Source: an uncultured Faecalicatena sp. (GTDB lineage: Bacteria; Bacillota; Clostridia; Lachnospirales; Lachnospiraceae). From it: a stretch of 64,000 nt of DNA. Position numbers and translations under genes: made by a program. Position 1 is the first letter of the stretch. The number at the start of each line of letters is the position of its first letter. Shown piece after piece: positions 2,685 through 38,409 of this stretch. The notes below the pieces were generated by a model. The model saw only the letters and a program-made list of their open reading frames with translations, was not told the DNA's origin and did no database searches. The DNA lies in the NCBI GenBank assembly GCA_948468385.1, contig CAOKHZ010000002.1, positions 153,300 to 217,299 on the forward strand, read 5' to 3'.

Positions 2685-4574
2685 ATGCAGTCCTATCAAA
2701 AGGAGTATGTTGAAAATTTACGTTCCGTTGCCGAACTGACGGCGGTTAGGCCTGTGGAAGGCATGTCGTTTACATCATGGTATCGGAACCTGCAAACAAA
2801 TTGGGCGCAAGCCGCGAAAATATGTGTTCGCAGCATGGAAATTCTACGTACTGAGTTTCGCCAGACGATTGACAATCTTTTTTCCGAGGGCGGAGAAGAC
2901 CTCGAAGGGTTGGAGGAATTTGCCGCCGCCTTGGTTTGCAACGGGGATTATCTGGATTCAGGTCTCTACTGTACCATCCATCAGGCACTTTTAAGCTTTT
3001 ATCGTACGAGGAAGATGCGTGACGGCATCATCCGCGAACTCTATTTCAAGGGGATGGGGCTATACTCCCAGACGAAGATGCTGTTTGGCATAGATCATCC
3101 GGTGTTGGATGCCTTTGACCAGCGTTTTCGCATGTGTTTTGCAGAGGCAGGGGCATATCGGAAGTATTTTGACGAGATTGAGTCCGAGGAGACGAAGGGA
3201 TACATTATTCGTGCCATGGCGAACGTGTCTCTGGGACGGTTTCAGAATAAAAGCGATAAGATTGCCATCGTCCGCCGTACCATCCAGGTTTTGAGTGACG
3301 ATTGGTATAAAGAACTTGCGCCGGGGCTTCCCTGGGATCGTTTTTTGTACCTGACCCATCAGCAGATGGTTTCCGGGCGTGCTTTGTTTTGCACGGATTT
3401 TACACCACAGGATTTGGCCGACTTGATGGAATCGAGCCATGTTCTCTATAACGAGCAGTTAGAGAGCGTCGAGCGGGATGGCGGCAAGCCGAATCCGCGC
3501 TTTTTCTGGCCTTATTGTGAAATGGAGTACATGTGTGGCCTGACGACGATTCAGGAAATGCTGGGCAAGCTGGAGATGCTGATTGAGCAGGCGAGCGAGG
3601 ACGACCAGTCCGTTGACGGCATGTACGCGCAGATTACGTTGCCGATGACCTATTGCAGCATTTTGGAAGAATTCGCGGATGAAGATTTTATGAATCGAAG
3701 CTTTGCGAATCAACACTTCACGGGGAGGGACTTGATTTGGAATAAGAGGGAATATTTGCAAAGGCTGAACGAGCGGGCATTTTGGTATGTCGGCGGTCTG
3801 CCGGCAGATCAGGGTCACGCCTTTTATCTGAACCAGTTCATTTCTGCTTACATCGAGTTGGACGGTTGTCCGCCGTATGATCAGGTGCTTCTTACGGTAC
3901 TTGGCAAGTGCACCCCGGACATTTACGTGCGTTCATGGATGATAGCCAAGGTGGCCGTGGCCATTTGTGAGACGGTGATGGAGGACGAGCCGCAGATTTT
4001 TGACGGCGTTCCGGCAGTGGCAAATGCGTGTGGCGTAGATGCCAAGCGAACGGCCGCGTTGCAATTCGTTCAAAAGGGCGGGATGCTTCATGATGTGGGC
4101 ATTCTTCCTTTTTACCATATACATTCGATTCGCAATCGCGAGTTGTTTCAGGAGGAACTGGAGCTGTTGCGGCTGCATACGTGCGTGGGGTGGGAAATGT
4201 TGAAAAAACGAAAATCCACGCGGGAGTACGCGGATTTGGCCTTGGGACATCATGCCTGGTACAATGGCGCGAAAGGGTATCCGGACGAGTACAAGCGCAG
4301 GGAGAGTCCGTGCCGTTGCGTGGTGGACCTCATTACCCTTGCGTCCTTTCTGACTCGGGAAATGGACTCGGACGGATTGTTCTACCGAACGGACGGCATG
4401 TTCGACGAGGCCATAGCCGAAGCCGTGCGGGAAGAGGGGCACAGGTTTTACCCGCCGCTCACCGTGAGCCTGCAGAATATGGAATTACAAAAGAAATTAC
4501 GGGAAATTTTTCGGAATGGCGTGAAGGAGGCGTGCCGACGGCTTTATGATGGGAAATATGGTATAGATGAATAA
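2685..4574 (+). CDS. HD-GYP-like signalling protein
   Basis: The ATG at 2685 follows AGGGGGGAG at 2671-2679; the frame is open further upstream but has no good ribosome site there. The protein has 629 residues. The first 400 or so are helical and unrecognised, with no membrane segment. The C-terminal part is an HD domain: GGMLHDVGI (His469-Asp470), a downstream HTCVGWEML histidine, then LGHHAWYNGAKGYP. This order matches HD-GYP phosphodiesterases, which hydrolyse cyclic dinucleotides. The usual HHExxDGxGYP motif is altered, so metal binding or activity may differ. It follows the hybrid kinase by 83 bases and may be its output protein. The HD assignment is firm; c-di-GMP hydrolysis is inference. 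Confidence 0.75.
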   Translation: MQSYQKEYVENLRSVAELTAVRPVEGMSFTSWYRNLQTNWAQAAKICVRSMEILRTEFRQTIDNLFSEGGEDLEGLEEFAAALVCNGDYLDSGLYCTIHQALLSFYRTRKMRDGIIRELYFKGMGLYSQTKMLFGIDHPVLDAFDQRFRMCFAEAGAYRKYFDEIESEETKGYIIRAMANVSLGRFQNKSDKIAIVRRTIQVLSDDWYKELAPGLPWDRFLYLTHQQMVSGRALFCTDFTPQDLADLMESSHVLYNEQLESVERDGGKPNPRFFWPYCEMEYMCGLTTIQEMLGKLEMLIEQASEDDQSVDGMYAQITLPMTYCSILEEFADEDFMNRSFANQHFTGRDLIWNKREYLQRLNERAFWYVGGLPADQGHAFYLNQFISAYIELDGCPPYDQVLLTVLGKCTPDIYVRSWMIAKVAVAICETVMEDEPQIFDGVPAVANACGVDAKRTAALQFVQKGGMLHDVGILPFYHIHSIRNRELFQEELELLRLHTCVGWEMLKKRKSTREYADLALGHHAWYNGAKGYPDEYKRRESPCRCVVDLITLASFLTREMDSDGLFYRTDGMFDEAIAEAVREEGHRFYPPLTVSLQNMELQKKLREIFRNGVKEACRRLYDGKYGIDE

Positions 4575-4590
4575 AAAAGTAGCGTTTCAC

Positions 4591-5056
4591 CATCTTGCTG
4601 GCCAGGTTGTCCACCGTGGAGACCATGCTGTCAATACGCCTGCCGCTCTGCCATTCCACCAGGTCGTCGACGTTGTTGTGGTTGGTGTTGAACATGATGA
4701 ACGCGACCGTCACGCCGATTGCGAAGGTGATGGTGTTGAGATAAATGGCACCGGTCGAGTAGGGGGCGAGGATGAACCAAATCTTGCCCACGATCATGAT
4801 GGCGGCGCTGAAAATCATCATGTTCCTGCGGCCGAGCATCTTGTCGAGCGGCACGGTCAGGATGGTGGCGACGATGGCGACAATCAGGTAGACCGCCATG
4901 ATGATCGTGGCGGCACCCGTACTGCCCATGATGTAGGTCGCATAGTAATTGATGGTGCTCATGATCAGCATGTTGATCACGCCGTAGCAGATGATGTAAA
5001 GCATGTTGAACACTCAGGAGCGGCAGCCGAACAAGATCTTCACGATCTTTAGGAAA
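4591..5056 (-). pseudogene. GPH-family sugar:cation symporter remnant
   Basis: On the minus strand about 140 residues resemble the middle of a glycoside-pentoside-hexuronide (MelB-type) symporter: several hydrophobic helices, VPLDKMLGRRN in a cytoplasmic loop, and NVDDLVEWQSGRR, which matches the family's conserved D-x-x-EW-x-TGRR segment. An in-frame TGA at 5014-5016 separates this from upstream codons that still read like family sequence (PFLKIVKILF). Both the N-terminal half and the last helices are missing; the right part runs into the 3' end of the HD-GYP-like gene. This is a dead fragment, not a short transporter. Confidence 0.75.
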
Positions 5057-28630: not shown

Positions 28631-30232
28631 GTGGGGAGTTATTTGAATCCGGGAAGCAAAGGGTTTGAGGAGTCGATTCGTTCGGAAATTTATGTGGACA
28701 AGACGGAGCTTATTGAAAAAATAAATGCGATTTTGAATACCAGGCAGAAATTTGTATGTGTGAGCCGCCCAAGACGTTTTGGAAAATCCATGGTGGAGGA
28801 TATGTTGGTCGCATATTATGAGCGGGATGAGGATTCTTCGAAATTGTTCGATAAACTGATAATCAGTCGGAGCAAATCATATCGAACACATTTGAACCAG
28901 TATGATGTCATCAAGGTTAACATGCAAGATTTTTTAAGCACGACCCAAAGTGTGGAGGAAATGCTAAGAAAGCTCAATAAATATCTGATTTATGATTTGA
29001 CGGAAGAGTTTGAAGAGGTGCGTTTTCGGGACGAAGCCGACTTGATTCAAGTGATGAGGGATGTTTTTGCAAAAACGCGGCACTCCTTTATCGTGTTGCT
29101 TGATGAATGGGACTGTCTTTTCAGGGAGTACAAACAAGACGTGGAGGCGCAGAGGAAATATCTTGACTTTTTGCGTGCATGGTTAAAGGATAAGGATTAC
29201 GTGGCATTGGTTTATATGACGGGCATCTTGCCAATTAAGAAATATGGCTCCCATTCTGCGTTGAACATGTTTACCGAATATTCCATGACGGATCCGGGAA
29301 ATCTGGCCGAATATTTCGGGTTTACGGAACGTGAAGTAAAGGCATTGTGTGCAGAATATAAGATGAGTTTTGAGGAAGCGAAAGCATGGTATGACGGGTA
29401 TCACTTGGTTACGCATACGAAGGATGGGGACGTGTGCCATTCCATGTACAGTCCGAAGTCCATGGTGGACGCGATGACCAGGTACAGATTTGGAACATAT
29501 TGGAACCAGACCGAGACATATGAGGCACTAAAGGTGTATATCCAAATGAACATGGATGGTTTGAAGGACGCCGTGGTCAGGATGTTGGCGGGCGAGAAGG
29601 TTCGCATCAATACAAAGACGTTCGAGAATGACATGACGACGTTCGCAACGAAAGACGACGTGTTGACGCTTTTGGTACATCTAGGGTATTTAACATATGA
29701 CAGCGTGTTGGAGACCGTCATGATTCCGAACAAGGAAGTGTCACAAGAATATGTGAACGCAATTACTACCATGGATTGGCACGAGGTGGCCAATTCCGTG
29801 GAAAATTCCAGAAAGCTTTTGGAATCATTGTGGGCGATGGATGAAAAAGCGGTGGCGGACGGGGTTGACCGTGCGCATAAGGAGGTTTCGATTCTTCAAT
29901 ATAATGATGAAAATGCTCTTAGCTGTACGATTAATCTGGCGTTTTATTTTGCCAGGGAGTACTATACGATTATTAGGGAATGTCCAGGCGGGAAAGGATT
30001 TGCGGATATTTGTCTTATTCCTCGAAAATTGCATGTGGACAAGCCGGCAGTAATTATTGAACTTAAGTGGGATAAGGAAGCGTCCGGCGCGATTGCACAG
30101 ATTAAAAGGAAAGATTATGTGGATGCCGTGAAAGATTATCGTGGAAACATGTTGCTTGTAGGGATAAATTACGATAGAAAATCAAAGAAGCATGATTGCG
30201 TGATAGAGAAAATTGAGGATTATGGAGCGTGA
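28631..30232 (+). CDS. AAA-ATPase-like / PD-(D/E)XK nuclease protein (PF09820-DUF1703)
   Basis: The GTG start follows AAGGGGAGG. The protein has 533 residues. The N-terminal half is the AAA-ATPase-like domain: YLNPGSKGFEESIRSEIYVD, the P-loop-like VSRPRRFGKSM, and Walker B IVLLDEWDCLFRE. The C-terminal part has the PD-(D/E)XK arrangement FADICLIPRK then AVIIELKW, with catalytic Asp, Glu and Lys in place, followed by a basic helix (AIAQIKRKDYVDAV). The family is abundant and multi-copy in Lachnospiraceae and Bacteroidetes, and its role is not settled. Two decayed relatives lie at 12171 and 14096. This copy appears intact. Confidence 0.88.
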   Translation: MGSYLNPGSKGFEESIRSEIYVDKTELIEKINAILNTRQKFVCVSRPRRFGKSMVEDMLVAYYERDEDSSKLFDKLIISRSKSYRTHLNQYDVIKVNMQDFLSTTQSVEEMLRKLNKYLIYDLTEEFEEVRFRDEADLIQVMRDVFAKTRHSFIVLLDEWDCLFREYKQDVEAQRKYLDFLRAWLKDKDYVALVYMTGILPIKKYGSHSALNMFTEYSMTDPGNLAEYFGFTEREVKALCAEYKMSFEEAKAWYDGYHLVTHTKDGDVCHSMYSPKSMVDAMTRYRFGTYWNQTETYEALKVYIQMNMDGLKDAVVRMLAGEKVRINTKTFENDMTTFATKDDVLTLLVHLGYLTYDSVLETVMIPNKEVSQEYVNAITTMDWHEVANSVENSRKLLESLWAMDEKAVADGVDRAHKEVSILQYNDENALSCTINLAFYFAREYYTIIRECPGGKGFADICLIPRKLHVDKPAVIIELKWDKEASGAIAQIKRKDYVDAVKDYRGNMLLVGINYDRKSKKHDCVIEKIEDYGA

Positions 30233-34959: not shown

Positions 34960-35095
34960 CAAGTTCTTGACATGAGAATACTTCGATGTTAGAATAAAAG
35001 TAGTTCGGCAATCGAAATATTTTAAAAACCAGATATGATTTGCATGGAATCGGGTTGTCGAGGTTATAAGAAATGTCAAGTTATGGGGAGTTGTC

Positions 35096-35593
35096 ATGGA
35101 GTGGAAGGAACAAGGCGCGCAGGCCGATGTGTTTGAATTTATCTTTGAGTATGTCGAGGAAGTGAAGGAATTGCTCTCGTCCGATTTGTGGGAGAATATT
35201 TTCCTCAATTGTTCCAAAAATGAAGTCTTGATTTTCTGGCTGCTTTACCGGAAGCGCGAAGTGAACATGACGGAGATTGCGGATTACATTCACGTTCCAT
35301 TAAACACGGCGACGGGGATTGTCAATCGGATGGAGAAGAGCGGGTTTATCGTGCGGACGCGTTCTCGTGAAGATAAGAGGGTCGTCCTAATCGAATTCAG
35401 CGAGAAGGGCATGGCACAGTTTGAAAAGCTGGTTCAAGAGCTGATGCATTATGGGATGAAGGTGTTTGGCAGTCTGACGAAAGAGGAGATGGAACTATTT
35501 TACAAGGTGGCGGGCAAGGTCAAGGATGTGTTGCGTGAAGAGCGCAAGGCAGAAAAACCTGCTAAGAAAGTGCGGAAAATCACGATTGAATAG
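35096..35593 (+). CDS. MarR-family regulator next to ArsA-like pair
   Basis: This protein has 165 residues; ATG 35096 follows GGGGAG. The winged helix-turn-helix is clear: FWLLYRKREVNMTEIADYIH, LNTATGIVNRMEKSGFIVRT, then the wing DKRVVLIEFSEKG. Helices before and after would form the dimer interface. The C-terminus is Lys-rich. The next gene starts 112 bases downstream after an inverted repeat, so it probably represses the ArsA-like genes. The ligand is unknown. Confidence 0.9.
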   Translation: MEWKEQGAQADVFEFIFEYVEEVKELLSSDLWENIFLNCSKNEVLIFWLLYRKREVNMTEIADYIHVPLNTATGIVNRMEKSGFIVRTRSREDKRVVLIEFSEKGMAQFEKLVQELMHYGMKVFGSLTKEEMELFYKVAGKVKDVLREERKAEKPAKKVRKITIE

Positions 35594-35605
35594 GCAAGGG
35601 AAAAG

Positions 35606-35622
35606 GGCAGCAGTGTGCTGCC
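35606..35622 (+). terminator. Small hairpin after marR
   Basis: GGCAGCA pairs with TGCTGCC around GTG, followed by TAAAATTC. This could attenuate or end the marR transcript. Confidence 0.4.
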
Positions 35623-35635
35623 TAAAATTCAAGAA

Positions 35636-35674
35636 AATAATTCGAATCACGAACTATTCGGAAGTAGAATTATT
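35636..35674. promoter_or_regulatory. Candidate MarR operator before ArsA-like operon
   Basis: AATAATTC (35636-35643) is the complement of GAATTATT (35667-35674). CGAA and TTCG half-sites lie between. It lies between the MarR stop and the ArsA-like start. The promoter itself is not obvious. Confidence 0.5.
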
Positions 35675-35705
35675 TAGAAAGTTTGAATGTTGAAAGGAGT
35701 ATGGG

Positions 35706-36899
35706 ATGAAGCGGATTTATATTTTTACCGGAAAGGGCGGCGTGGGAAAGAGCAGCATTGCCACGGCACATGCCATTAAAAGCGCAGGAGAGGGCGTAAG
35801 GACGCTACTTGTCAGCACGGACATGGCGCACAACCTGGGGGATATTTTTGGACGGAAGCTGGGTGCGGACATTGAGACGATTTCCCGGAATCTGGACGTT
35901 TATGAGATTGCCCCGGAGTACGTGATGGAGCATGAGTTCCCGGAGATAGGAAATTATCTGGGGTATCTGCTGTCGGAAGAAATTGACGGAAGCAACGGGT
36001 TACAAGAGTTATGCATGATTCCCGGGATGGAAGAACTGTTTTCCTTGCTAAGAATTGCGGAAATCTATGACAAGGAAGATTATGAGAGAATTATCGTGGA
36101 TTGTGCTCCTACGGGGGAAACGTTGTCGCTATTAAAGTTTCCCGAACTGCTTTCGTGGTACATGGAAAAGCTGTTTCCCATTGGGAAGGTGGGTGTAAGG
36201 ATATTAGAGCCCATCTCGAAAGCGGCGTTCAAGGTCGAGATGCCGAACAAGGCGGCCATGAATGATATCGAGAAGTTATATGTAAAGTTGGCAGGGCTGC
36301 AGGAACTTTTGAAAAACAGGGATGTCACCAGTATCCGGATCGTGACCACGCCGGAAAAGATGGTCGTGGAGGAGACGAAGCGCAATTATATGTATATGAA
36401 TCTTTACGATTTTAACGTGGATGGGCTTTATATCAATCGGATTTTGCCAAAGGACATTGGAAATCCCTTTTTTGAGCAATGGCTTGACATTCAGCAGGGG
36501 TACATTTCGCTTTTGAAGGACACGTTTGCGGCACTGCCCATTTATGAAGTCCCCTGGTATGACGAGGAGCTTAAAGGGAGGGAAAATATTGAGCGGATCG
36601 TGGCGGACGTATTGGCGGATGACGAGGTATTTGCGGCGAGAGTCATTGCGGAAAGGGAGTGCTTCCGGCAAGTCGGGGATGGATACCAGTTGGAGGTTTT
36701 TTTGCCCGGCGCGAAGAAGGAGGAGATTGATTTATATCAGGCGGCCACGGACGTTGTCATAAAGGCGGGGAATTTCAAACGAAACATTCCGCTTCCGAAC
36801 ATTCTTCGAAGTTACGAGGTGGCAGGTGCGAAATTCGAGGAAGGAAAATTGCGGATTCGATTTGAAAAGGTATGGGAAGGAAGTGGCGAGCATGCATGA
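35706..36899 (+). CDS. ArsA/Get3-like ATPase 1 with Hsp20-like C-terminus
   Basis: This protein has 397 residues; ATG 35706 follows AAAGGAG. The deviant P-loop GKGGVGKSS starts at residue 8, with STDMAHNLGD (switch I) and IIVDCAPTGETLSLLKFPE (switch II, the family's D-x-APTG-x-T). Between them is MIPGMEELFSLLRIAE, conserved in this group. The last 80 or so residues (VFLPGAKKEEIDLYQ...GAKFEEGKLRIRF) form an ArsA_HSP20-type beta domain. No ArsB, ArsR or metal-binding Cys triplet is present, so arsenite export is unlikely. Relatives handle membrane proteins (Get3) or unknown clients. It overlaps the small downstream gene by 8 bases. Confidence 0.9.
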   Translation: MKRIYIFTGKGGVGKSSIATAHAIKSAGEGVRTLLVSTDMAHNLGDIFGRKLGADIETISRNLDVYEIAPEYVMEHEFPEIGNYLGYLLSEEIDGSNGLQELCMIPGMEELFSLLRIAEIYDKEDYERIIVDCAPTGETLSLLKFPELLSWYMEKLFPIGKVGVRILEPISKAAFKVEMPNKAAMNDIEKLYVKLAGLQELLKNRDVTSIRIVTTPEKMVVEETKRNYMYMNLYDFNVDGLYINRILPKDIGNPFFEQWLDIQQGYISLLKDTFAALPIYEVPWYDEELKGRENIERIVADVLADDEVFAARVIAERECFRQVGDGYQLEVFLPGAKKEEIDLYQAATDVVIKAGNFKRNIPLPNILRSYEVAGAKFEEGKLRIRFEKVWEGSGEHA

Positions 36900-37215
36900 G
36901 GAAATGTTGTGTAGGGTGAGAATGGCGGCGGAATACCAGAAAAAGGCGGTTCGTGCCTTGTTTTCTGAAAAAATGAACGAGCATATTGACGTGATTGAGC
37001 GGGAAGTAAAGTTGATGGCGGCGGAAGCGGCCGTGGATTTTTTAAGAAGGTGCGCCATGAGAGGCAGAAAGAAAGCAGATGGCTATGACGGAAAAAGGGG
37101 GTGGGATGATAAAAGGGGCGATGACAGCAGGAAGCGAGAGGATGATAGCGGAAAAGGAGGCAATTGCAATGGGACAACGAGAACTGCAAGAACAAAAAAA
37201 GTGGAAATTCTGTAG
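36892..37215 (+). CDS. Small helical protein between two ArsA-like ATPases
   Basis: The ATG at 36892 lies inside the end of the ArsA-like 1 gene, behind GGGAAGGAAG, so translation is coupled. The protein has 107 residues: about 55 residues of amphipathic helix (MHEEMLCRVRMAAEYQ, then AVRALFSEKMNEHIDVIERE, AAEAAVDFLRRC), followed by a hydrophilic Gly/Asp/Lys/Arg tail. It has no membrane segment. The family is not recognised. Its position suggests an adaptor or regulator of the ATPase pair. The tail could be variable sequence without function. Confidence 0.65.
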   Translation: MHEEMLCRVRMAAEYQKKAVRALFSEKMNEHIDVIEREVKLMAAEAAVDFLRRCAMRGRKKADGYDGKRGWDDKRGDDSRKREDDSGKGGNCNGTTRTARTKKVEIL

Positions 37216-37251
37216 GCTACATGTCAGCTTTAGATAAAGAAAGGAAATAAA

Positions 37252-38409
37252 GTGATGAGAATTATCATATACACGGGCAAGGGCGGCGTGGGGAAGACGA
37301 GCATGGCCGTGGCGACCGCTTGCAAAATCGCGAAGGACGGGAAAAGGGTGCTTGTCATGAGCACGGATCAGGCGCACAGTTTGAAGGATTCTTTTGACGT
37401 TAAAATTGGCCGGGAACCGACGCGGGTGGCGGAACGGCTGGACGCGATGGAAATTGACACCGTATACGAGAGTGAGAAATGCTGGGGAAATTTGCAGGAT
37501 TATTTGAAACAGCTTCTCACCTTGAAGGGTGGAAGTGGGATCGAAGTGGAAGAACTGTTGGTATTTCCCGGGCTGGAGGAGTTGTTCTCCATGTTTCGGA
37601 TTTTGGACATGTACGAAAGCGGGGAATACGACACGCTCGTCGTAGATTGCGCGCCCACGGGCGAGACGTTGGCATTGCTTAAATATCCGGAACGACTGTC
37701 CGGGCTGATTCGGCGGGTGCTGCCGATTGAAAAGGCGGGAGTGAAGACCGTGGGCGTGCTATTGGAAAATCTGATGAAACTGCCGATGCCAAAGGACGCG
37801 GTGTTCGATGACATTGAGTACTTAATGGATAAAATGCTACGGCTGCAAAAGCTTCTGCTAAATCAGAACGTCGTGAGCCTGCGCGTGGTGACCACGCCGG
37901 AAAAGATCGTGATAAGCGAGGCAAAACGAAATTTTACGTGCCTTTATTTGTATCATTACAACGTGGACGTGGTGATTGTAAATCACATTTACCCGCAGGA
38001 AGCGATGGAGGGGTATTTTAACAAATGGAAGAGATTGCAGGAGGAGGGACTGCGGGAGATACGAGAAAGTTTTAGCGAGGTGCCGCGCATTTATGTGGAA
38101 TTACTGCCAAAAGAACTTCGGACGTTAAACGTGTTGGAAGAGGTGGGGGACTTGATGTTTTCGGAGTGCAATCCCAATGACGTATTGTTCCAAAAGGAGA
38201 TTTATCAGGTGGATGGCGAGGCGGGAAGCCTTAAAATTTATTTGCCGTTTGCCGAGAAAGAGGAGCTTGGCCTTGAGAAGGATGGAAATGAGCTTGTGGT
38301 AGGCGTGAAAAATGAGAGCCGGAGATTCCCCGTACCTGTAGGATTTGTGGGGAGGGAGATTATCGGGGCGAAGTGGGAGGAAGGGTATTTGAAGATTATG
38401 TTTGCGTAG
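37252..38409 (+). CDS. ArsA/Get3-like ATPase 2 with Hsp20-like C-terminus
   Basis: This protein has 385 residues; GTG 37252 and ATG 37255 both lie behind AAAGGA. It matches ATPase 1 along its whole length: GKGGVGKTS, MSTDQAHSLKDSF, FPGLEELFSMFRILDMYE, LVVDCAPTGETLALLKYPE, VVTTPEKIVISEAKR, and a C-terminal Hsp20-like domain (IYLPFAEKEELGL, GAKWEEGYLKIMF). Both P-loops and switch motifs are intact, so both should bind ATP. The two have diverged clearly (different loops at residues 70-90), which fits a heterodimer rather than a recent duplication. Confidence 0.9.
   Translation: MMRIIIYTGKGGVGKTSMAVATACKIAKDGKRVLVMSTDQAHSLKDSFDVKIGREPTRVAERLDAMEIDTVYESEKCWGNLQDYLKQLLTLKGGSGIEVEELLVFPGLEELFSMFRILDMYESGEYDTLVVDCAPTGETLALLKYPERLSGLIRRVLPIEKAGVKTVGVLLENLMKLPMPKDAVFDDIEYLMDKMLRLQKLLLNQNVVSLRVVTTPEKIVISEAKRNFTCLYLYHYNVDVVIVNHIYPQEAMEGYFNKWKRLQEEGLREIRESFSEVPRIYVELLPKELRTLNVLEEVGDLMFSECNPNDVLFQKEIYQVDGEAGSLKIYLPFAEKEELGLEKDGNELVVGVKNESRRFPVPVGFVGREIIGAKWEEGYLKIMFA

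Follow-up and report, generated by a model that had tools for sequence, protein, structure and literature searches.

A paired Get3-like ATPase unit of Lachnospiraceae with heat-shock-type tails on its MarR regulator and small helical protein

A 64,000-nucleotide stretch of DNA from an uncultured Faecalicatena sp. (contig CAOKHZ010000002.1 of assembly GCA_948468385.1; 'the window' hereafter means this whole stretch) carries four genes on its forward strand that encode, in this order, a MarR-family regulator, a first ATPase (A1), a small helical protein and a second ATPase (A2). These four are called the unit throughout. Both ATPases are of the Get3/ArsA type and end in an alpha-crystallin (HSP20-like) domain (aCD), and the two members that are not ATPases end in a short basic tail with a [V/I]-x-I motif, closely similar to the tail by which small heat-shock proteins dock onto each other. 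With slightly more confidence than doubt, we read the unit as a Get3-like chaperone whose aCDs would receive these tails in trans and whose tailed repressor would regulate its own expression. Searches of the open-licence papers of PubMed Central turned up no paper on the unit.

The genes and domains of the unit are as follows (aa, amino acids):

35096..35593, + strand: MarR-family regulator, 165 aa (PF01047, E 5.3e-13)
35706..36899, + strand: ATPase 1 (A1), 397 aa, Get3/ArsA type with C-terminal alpha-crystallin domain (PF02374, E 7.8e-74)
36675..36863, + strand: alpha-crystallin (HSP20-like) domain of A1, residues 324-386 (PF17886, ArsA_HSP20, E 7.7e-24)
36892..37215, + strand: small protein, 107 aa, with a helical hairpin (residues 2-60), a disordered linker and a tail (conserved family, 70 aligned; AlphaFold2)
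37255..38409, + strand: ATPase 2 (A2), 384 aa, Get3/ArsA type with C-terminal alpha-crystallin domain (PF02374, E 2.5e-77; PF17886; TIGR00345)
38227..38403, + strand: alpha-crystallin (HSP20-like) domain of A2, residues 325-383 (PF17886, E 3e-16)

The regulator has the winged-helix domain of its family (PF01047, 49.1 bits versus a cut-off of 24.6), and the start of the small-protein gene overlaps the end of the A1 gene by 8 nt. GKGGVGKS/T and DCAPTGET are intact in A1 and A2 and invariant or nearly so in their aligned relatives; the alignments, which include the window's own sequence and cover part of the loci, hold 70 small proteins, 62 A1 and 59 A2. An earlier reading of the sequence alone (the sequence-only reading) had described two full-length ATPases with these motifs and Hsp20-like C-termini, a coupled 107-residue helical protein between them and a MarR gene ahead, a description that the domain matches and the AlphaFold2 model bear out.

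Conservation of the four-gene order

A scan of genome contigs with A1 as the query returned 199 relatives, the best 80 of which (58-95% identity to A1, nearly all from Lachnospiraceae) underlie the counts on 80 relatives or loci given here. The order MarR, A1, small protein, A2 is complete in 77 of the 80; taken gene by gene, the upstream MarR is found in 79, the small gene in 78 and A2 in 79. The expectations of the sequence-only reading that the four genes co-occur in this order in relatives, that the small gene is conserved and that the two ATPases are regularly adjacent elsewhere thus all held. Because 77 of 80 loci keep the four genes in order, the arrangement is not a chance one. As the closest relatives, with near-duplicates among them (L021/L022, L006/L007), the 80 loci are not independent. 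In one of the three exceptions (L059) the A1 match begins near a contig end and MarR is not seen; in a second (L027) both the small gene and A2 are missing and A1 is out of frame with its own start; in the third (L050) the small open reading frame (ORF) is not found and A1 runs straight into A2.

In a set of 293 genomes belonging to the class, long frames with a strong ArsA_HSP20 match marked nine genomes with paired ATPases (the window's own included) and eight with a single ATPase; a small-protein profile run on the same set matched eight genomes, every one of them with an ATPase pair. Strong matches in 299 genomes of the phylum were limited to nine genomes, namely the own genome, one further pair (G453) and otherwise single ATPases, one of these single-ATPase genomes also holding an extra broken copy. 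From both sets, 25 further loci were fetched, 24 of which have a whole ATPase with aCD (9 paired, 15 single); the remaining one (L138, G556:C1:1929500-1937500, positions 3234-4095) is a second alpha-crystallin Get3 gene of its genome of which only the C-terminal part is left. MarR adjoins the ATPase in 22 of the 24 loci, and the small protein is present in all nine paired ones. In 11 of the 15 single-ATPase loci, a small ORF of 50-160 aa with a V/I/L-x-I/V C-terminus sits at the end of the ATPase gene, and most of those inspected have related N-terminal sequences. This C-terminal pattern is a loose test, shared by 50 of 588 neighbour ORFs; applied to 14 ArsA/Get3 genes that lack an aCD (single-domain frames of 299-339 aa, with fused ArsA frames of 576-608 aa left out), the search found no small ORF of this type.

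A conserved wider operon was considered and rejected, as the most widespread neighbour cluster, counted from ORFs of at least 110 aa inside the fetched flanks, occurs in only 19 of the 80 loci and there lies both up- and downstream and on either strand.

Tails on the regulator and the small protein

Two C-terminal tails carry the argument:

35564..35590, + strand: MarR tail KKVRKITIE (I-x-I motif), with Ile at -4 and -2 in 75/75 distinct tails
37192..37212, + strand: small-protein tail TKKVEIL (V-x-I motif)

Both follow a common plan of basic residues, [V/I]-x-I and mostly one residue more. A strict form of this pattern ([KR][VI]xI plus one residue) is found in 79/79 MarR proteins, 77/79 small proteins and 0/588 neighbour ORFs, and a loose form, allowing up to three residues after the motif, in 79/79, 79/79 (78 loci plus the window) and 1/588, respectively; the MarR set leaves out L046, which has undetermined bases. 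Among 75 distinct small-protein tails, Lys stands at -5 in 72, Val or Ile at -4 in 74 and Ile at -2 in 73, and because the linker before it is little conserved, this tail must be selected in its own right. Each of the 22 MarR proteins at the further loci ends in I-x-I, which in L125 and L133 is not directly preceded by a basic residue, and some small-protein tails of the wider set continue beyond the motif (KKVDIDFSN, RQVEVDFN, RKVSIDFS), which fits a strand binding in a groove and does not fit recognition of a free C-terminus. In L130 (positions 3440-4937), a single alpha-crystallin Get3 gene with no MarR match beside it is followed by a 104-aa ORF ending in TRRKIEIE, so that the small-protein tail can occur without the regulator.

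What these tails may be for is suggested by the stand-alone Hsp20 proteins of the same class. In 20 of these (drawn from the first 22 short-frame PF17886 places, and all above the PF00011 cut-off), the strict pattern is found in 14 and the loose one in 15, and a [V/I]-x-[I/V] end in all 20 versus 30 of 588 neighbour ORFs; GRKIDIQ, NRIEIK and GRRIDIN are examples. In solved small heat-shock proteins, as parts of PMC4823740 describe, the motif binds the hydrophobic beta4-beta8 groove of a neighbouring alpha-crystallin domain. At the 14 clostridial loci whose ArsA/Get3 gene lacks an aCD, the fetched stretches gave no MarR-profile match (0/14), although a very different MarR could escape because the profile was built from the unit's own MarR. 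As far as these sequences tell, a tailed MarR goes with the presence of an aCD on the ATPase. The claim that the aCD of Get3-type ATPases would be a receptor for small-heat-shock-type tails of other proteins, with the clostridial repressor reading the free sites, is put forward tentatively, with belief somewhat short of even.

The tails might instead act away from the ATPases, as a degradation tag, as a contact to nucleic acid or membrane, or in self-association of MarR with the small protein. Both are basic and both sit on non-ATPase members, as such a role would allow, yet we consider it unlikely, as their pattern is that of the Hsp20 docking tail of the same class by the same test, and as MarR and the tails accompany the alpha-crystallin domain. 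A degradation tag read at the free C-terminus, moreover, fits poorly with small-protein tails that continue past the motif, and no wider tag system is apparent: in the own genome, the strict pattern ending in D/E turned up a single true tail, the one on the unit's MarR, while a second match reads TGG instead of a stop. A genome-wide family of tailed clients was rejected on the same result. A looser pattern was uninformative in the own genome (89+67 matches versus 65+51 in the reversed control), and of eight other genomes all but G255 gave counts close to the control; the G255 count (24 versus 9) partly reflects one repeated word. This 18-bp word, AAAATTGATATAGAATAG, reads KIDIE-stop and occurs in four copies within 500 bp (G255:C19:39135-39632) and in two elsewhere (C7, C55); it may be a repeated DNA element or mark a family of small ORFs with tails.

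For the small protein itself, AlphaFold2 predicts helices at residues 2-23 and 26-60, with a predicted local distance difference test score (pLDDT) mostly around 90, followed by a linker and tail of low confidence (mean pLDDT of the model, 73.6). Invariant across the 70 aligned sequences are four hairpin residues (A12, A19, H31 and E38) and, in the tail, I106. The protein had no matches in Pfam or NCBIfam, its fold gave nothing in Foldseek at E <=10, and its sequence gave nothing under E 0.45 among solved structures.

Operator-like palindromes and the proposed feedback

The intervals before MarR and before A1 hold a promoter-like site and four palindromes:

34967..34995, + strand: MarR promoter-like site, TTGACA, 17 nt, TAGAAT, with TG before the second hexamer (11/12 in a consensus scan)
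34977..34999, no strand: upstream site 1, operator-like palindrome over the promoter spacer and second hexamer (13/18 positions)
34999..35021, no strand: upstream site 2, operator-like palindrome (15/18 positions; 1 mismatch in the own-genome search)
35636..35658, no strand: main operator-like palindrome AATAATTCGAATCACGAACTATT in the MarR-A1 interval (sole 0-mismatch site in the own genome)
35652..35674, no strand: second palindrome, 16 bp on and overlapping the main one (13/18 positions)

The inverted repeat AATAATTC/GAATTATT that the sequence-only reading had pointed out is present, though its arms are really the outer halves of the last two palindromes, each 23 bp long. The 23-bp palindrome before A1, AATACTTCGNNNNNCGAAGTATT, keeps 15-17 of 18 fixed positions in 80/80 sequences (79 loci plus the window), the maximum in a control of one shuffled copy per stretch being 12 of 18. 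Its overlapping second copy at 16 bp reaches at least 10 of 18 in 79/80 and at least 12 in 38/80; upstream of MarR, a site of at least 13 is found in 74/80, and a partner of at least 12 at 22 bp in 61/80. The 13 single-ATPase loci with MarR have a best site of at least 14 before the ATPase in 8 and upstream of MarR in 12, where 20 shuffles reach 11-13. The promoter-like site is the best of nine matches in the consensus scan (shuffles: mean 4.9, sd 2.2).

Operator-like sites with no or one mismatch occur in the own genome at the unit only, and from the genome-wide distribution of palindrome matches the unit itself is probably the regulator's main target. A remote regulon was rejected: 23 places outside the three sites at the unit have 2-3 mismatches, compared with 14 matches to the reversed pattern, and one divergent ORF pair is left as a possible target. 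Three outside places were inspected, of which two lie within open frames and the third at the start of divergent ORFs. At this third place (G000:C2:94652-94690; L159, 2153-2191), the two divergent ORFs begin at a pair of 3-mismatch sites that stand 16 bp apart, a spacing also found in the unit.

A GC-rich hairpin (GGCAGCA-GTG-TGCTGCC, window 35606-35622) lies after the stop codon of MarR and ahead of the main palindrome, and GGCAGC/GCTGCC words are enriched at this place in relatives (e.g. AGGCAGC in 36/80); it is perhaps an attenuator or a processing hairpin. The exact operators, the tail common to MarR and clostridial Hsp20, and the autoregulation proposed here had all been missed by the sequence-only reading.

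Put together, these elements could work as follows. The unit would make a Get3-like ATPase chaperone or targeting factor, probably an A1-A2 heterodimer and, in the single-ATPase form, a homodimer, in which ATP-driven opening and closing of the Get3 type would handle a hydrophobic client. The C-terminal aCD of each ATPase would be a docking site in trans, into whose beta4-beta8 groove the small protein and MarR would plug by their basic [V/I]-x-I tails. The hairpin of the small protein would then do the actual work, brought to the ATPase or retained there as a client adaptor, a plug or a regulator of the cycle. MarR, for its part, would repress the unit via the 23-bp palindromes that overlie its promoter and precede A1, and as its tail would compete for the docking sites, expression would follow the number of free sites on the ATPases: with sites free, the repressor would be caught or stabilised, and with sites filled, its state and hence expression would change. 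Either sign of this feedback would fit the sequence.

Several observations weigh against this reading. One relative (L050) keeps both ATPases and MarR without the small gene; among the further aCD-ATPase loci, both MarR and the small protein are missing from L127, and L130 lacks a MarR match; in three single-ATPase loci the small protein is diverged, its tail being unclear in L134, the protein very short in L135 and interrupted in L126. At up to three mismatches, the own genome holds 26 operator-like sites versus 14 for the reversed pattern, and eight other genomes together hold 19 matches at up to two mismatches versus 14 in the control; six of the eight have sites at the unit, and G174 and G208 have them elsewhere only, although a relaxed scan of these two gives sites with 15 of 18 positions within the unit. 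Thus, the regulator may have further targets elsewhere in the genome. Finally, the aCD of Get3d, an ATPase of photosynthetic organisms, packs at the Get3 dimer interface, over the Get4 site, according to the parts of PMC10248533 that deal with its structure, and because of this packing the groove of the aCD may not be free.

The two ATPases and their known relatives

Both ATPases score above the cut-off of the Get3/TRC40/ArsA subfamily model TIGR00345 (A1 229 and A2 226.1 versus 135 bits) and below those of more specific models, namely the 565-position ArsA model TIGR04291 (95.7 and 88.8 versus 650 bits), the NosAFP equivalog NF050088 (151.6 and 129.2 versus 325 bits) and the BagA and BagB models (28.6-47.3 bits versus 400 and 521). 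A structural alignment of A1 to 8egk and 8elf reaches residues 389 and 388, thereby covering the Get3 fold and the C-terminal aCD, and the closest solved sequence to A1 and A2 is the archaeal 3zq6. The chains mostly end in or shortly after the last aCD strand, by way of which a few A2 ends show the looser tail pattern. A CxxC motif is found in 1/62 A1 and 0/59 A2; this zinc motif is not universal, as Get3d and AtGet3a are described without it in the sections of PMC10248533 concerned. The own genome contains no full ATPases of this kind besides A1 and A2, a third match being weak. In two other Clostridia, adjacent pairs of ArsA/Get3 ATPases without an aCD and of about 300 aa each are found (L147, 3177-4947; L152, 3040-4819), representing another type of paired Get3-like ATPase, one without tails.

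Seven neighbours of the unit were scanned, among them a UvrD-type helicase directly 5′ and a family 2 glycosyl hydrolase directly 3′, followed by TrkH and TrkA, and these are unrelated to it. None of the seven is an arsenic gene or a pump, in keeping with what the sequence-only reading had stated. Near the unit, at window 28631-30232, lies a predicted AAA-ATPase with a PD-(D/E)XK domain (PF09820, PF08011).

Arsenic resistance was rejected on model scores, chain layout and the neighbours scanned. A broader version of the idea is a conventional MarR detoxification or stress operon, in which the regulator would sense a small molecule, the ATPases would energise an unlinked export or metal/metalloid defence, and the likeness of the tails would be a side effect. 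MarR proteins usually bind small ligands, the catalytic motifs of both ATPases are intact and further operator-like sites may exist elsewhere in the genome, all of which would suit such an operon. Against it, both proteins score far below the ArsA cut-off, no pump or transporter is found in the unit or common to most loci, and in A1 the switch II Cys alone is conserved (61/62), position 103 being Gly in 57/62. A2 has that Cys and two more (Cys132 in 59/59, Cys229 in 56/59 and Cys23 in 47/59, as counted among its own relatives); ArsA, for comparison, has an arsenite-binding cysteine triad. On balance, we regard this explanation as improbable. An anti-phage defence role was also rejected, as neither A1 nor the small protein matched anything in PADLOC, and A2 and MarR had only partial matches of at most 23.6 bits.

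In the tree of the ATPases, A1 and A2 fall into one clade each, the pattern that a single duplication would leave, and several subclades appear on both sides. Their distances are the most correlated within the unit (r 0.886, 74 loci), and such co-inheritance fits an obligate heterodimer. Here the earlier proposal of a heterodimer with an adaptor stands in part: the pairing agrees with it, and bridging two unlike ATPases is unlikely to have been the original job of the small protein, because 11 of the 15 single-ATPase loci also have a similarly placed small ORF. Alternatively, A1 and A2 could be separate homodimers with different clients, co-transcribed for convenience. Their active sites are both complete, single-ATPase units make up 15 of the 24 further loci, and co-inheritance is no proof of contact. 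Against separate homodimers, several subclades recur in both trees, and A1 stands without A2 in only one of the 80 relatives (L027, whose A1 is out of frame), in a search that used A1 as its query. Overall, this alternative seems to us rather unlikely.

If the reading of the unit as a tail-receiving chaperone is true, its repressor would mimic a heat-shock docking peptide, and the same may hold for the aCD of Get3d in chloroplasts and cyanobacteria; a chaperone would moreover be controlling its own repressor in a new manner. Two candidate aCD ligands can be named, each with a short, nearly invariant and easily mutated motif, and the operator-like sites give a simple reporter, so that a Get3 chaperone question becomes testable in ordinary anaerobic bacteria.

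Among known systems, Get3/TRC40, the targeting ATPase for tail-anchored proteins, shares with A1 and A2 the subfamily model that both pass; the two differ from it by the extra aCD and the near-absent CxxC. The arsenite pump ATPase ArsA belongs to the same P-loop family, from which A1 and A2 stand apart as separate chains of 384-397 aa with no pump gene among the seven neighbours and scores far under its cut-off. BagA and BagB form a heterodimer. Like A1 and A2, these proteins of Mycobacterium tuberculosis (Rv3679-Rv3680; one solved entry, PDB 6bs3) are two unlike bacterial Get3-like ATPases, although A1 and A2 fall far under both of their model cut-offs. With the Hsp20 small heat-shock proteins, which carry a C-terminal I-x-I tail, the unit has both the aCD and closely similar tails in common, but in the unit the tail-bearing proteins are not those with the domain, which is fused to an ATPase.

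Closest in architecture is Get3d (NosGet3d/All4481, AtGet3d), which has the same Get3 fold with a C-terminal alpha-crystallin domain at 22-23% identity. It is described from photosynthetic bacteria and plants (PMC10248533), whereas the unit is found in Clostridia and elsewhere in their phylum, where its ATPases have a MarR and a small protein, each with a tail, as neighbours. The passages of PMC10248533 that discuss the aCD call it a unique feature of Get3d that first evolved in photosynthetic bacteria, and describe its role as unclear and its partners as still to be found. The clostridial unit widens this picture and offers candidate partners.

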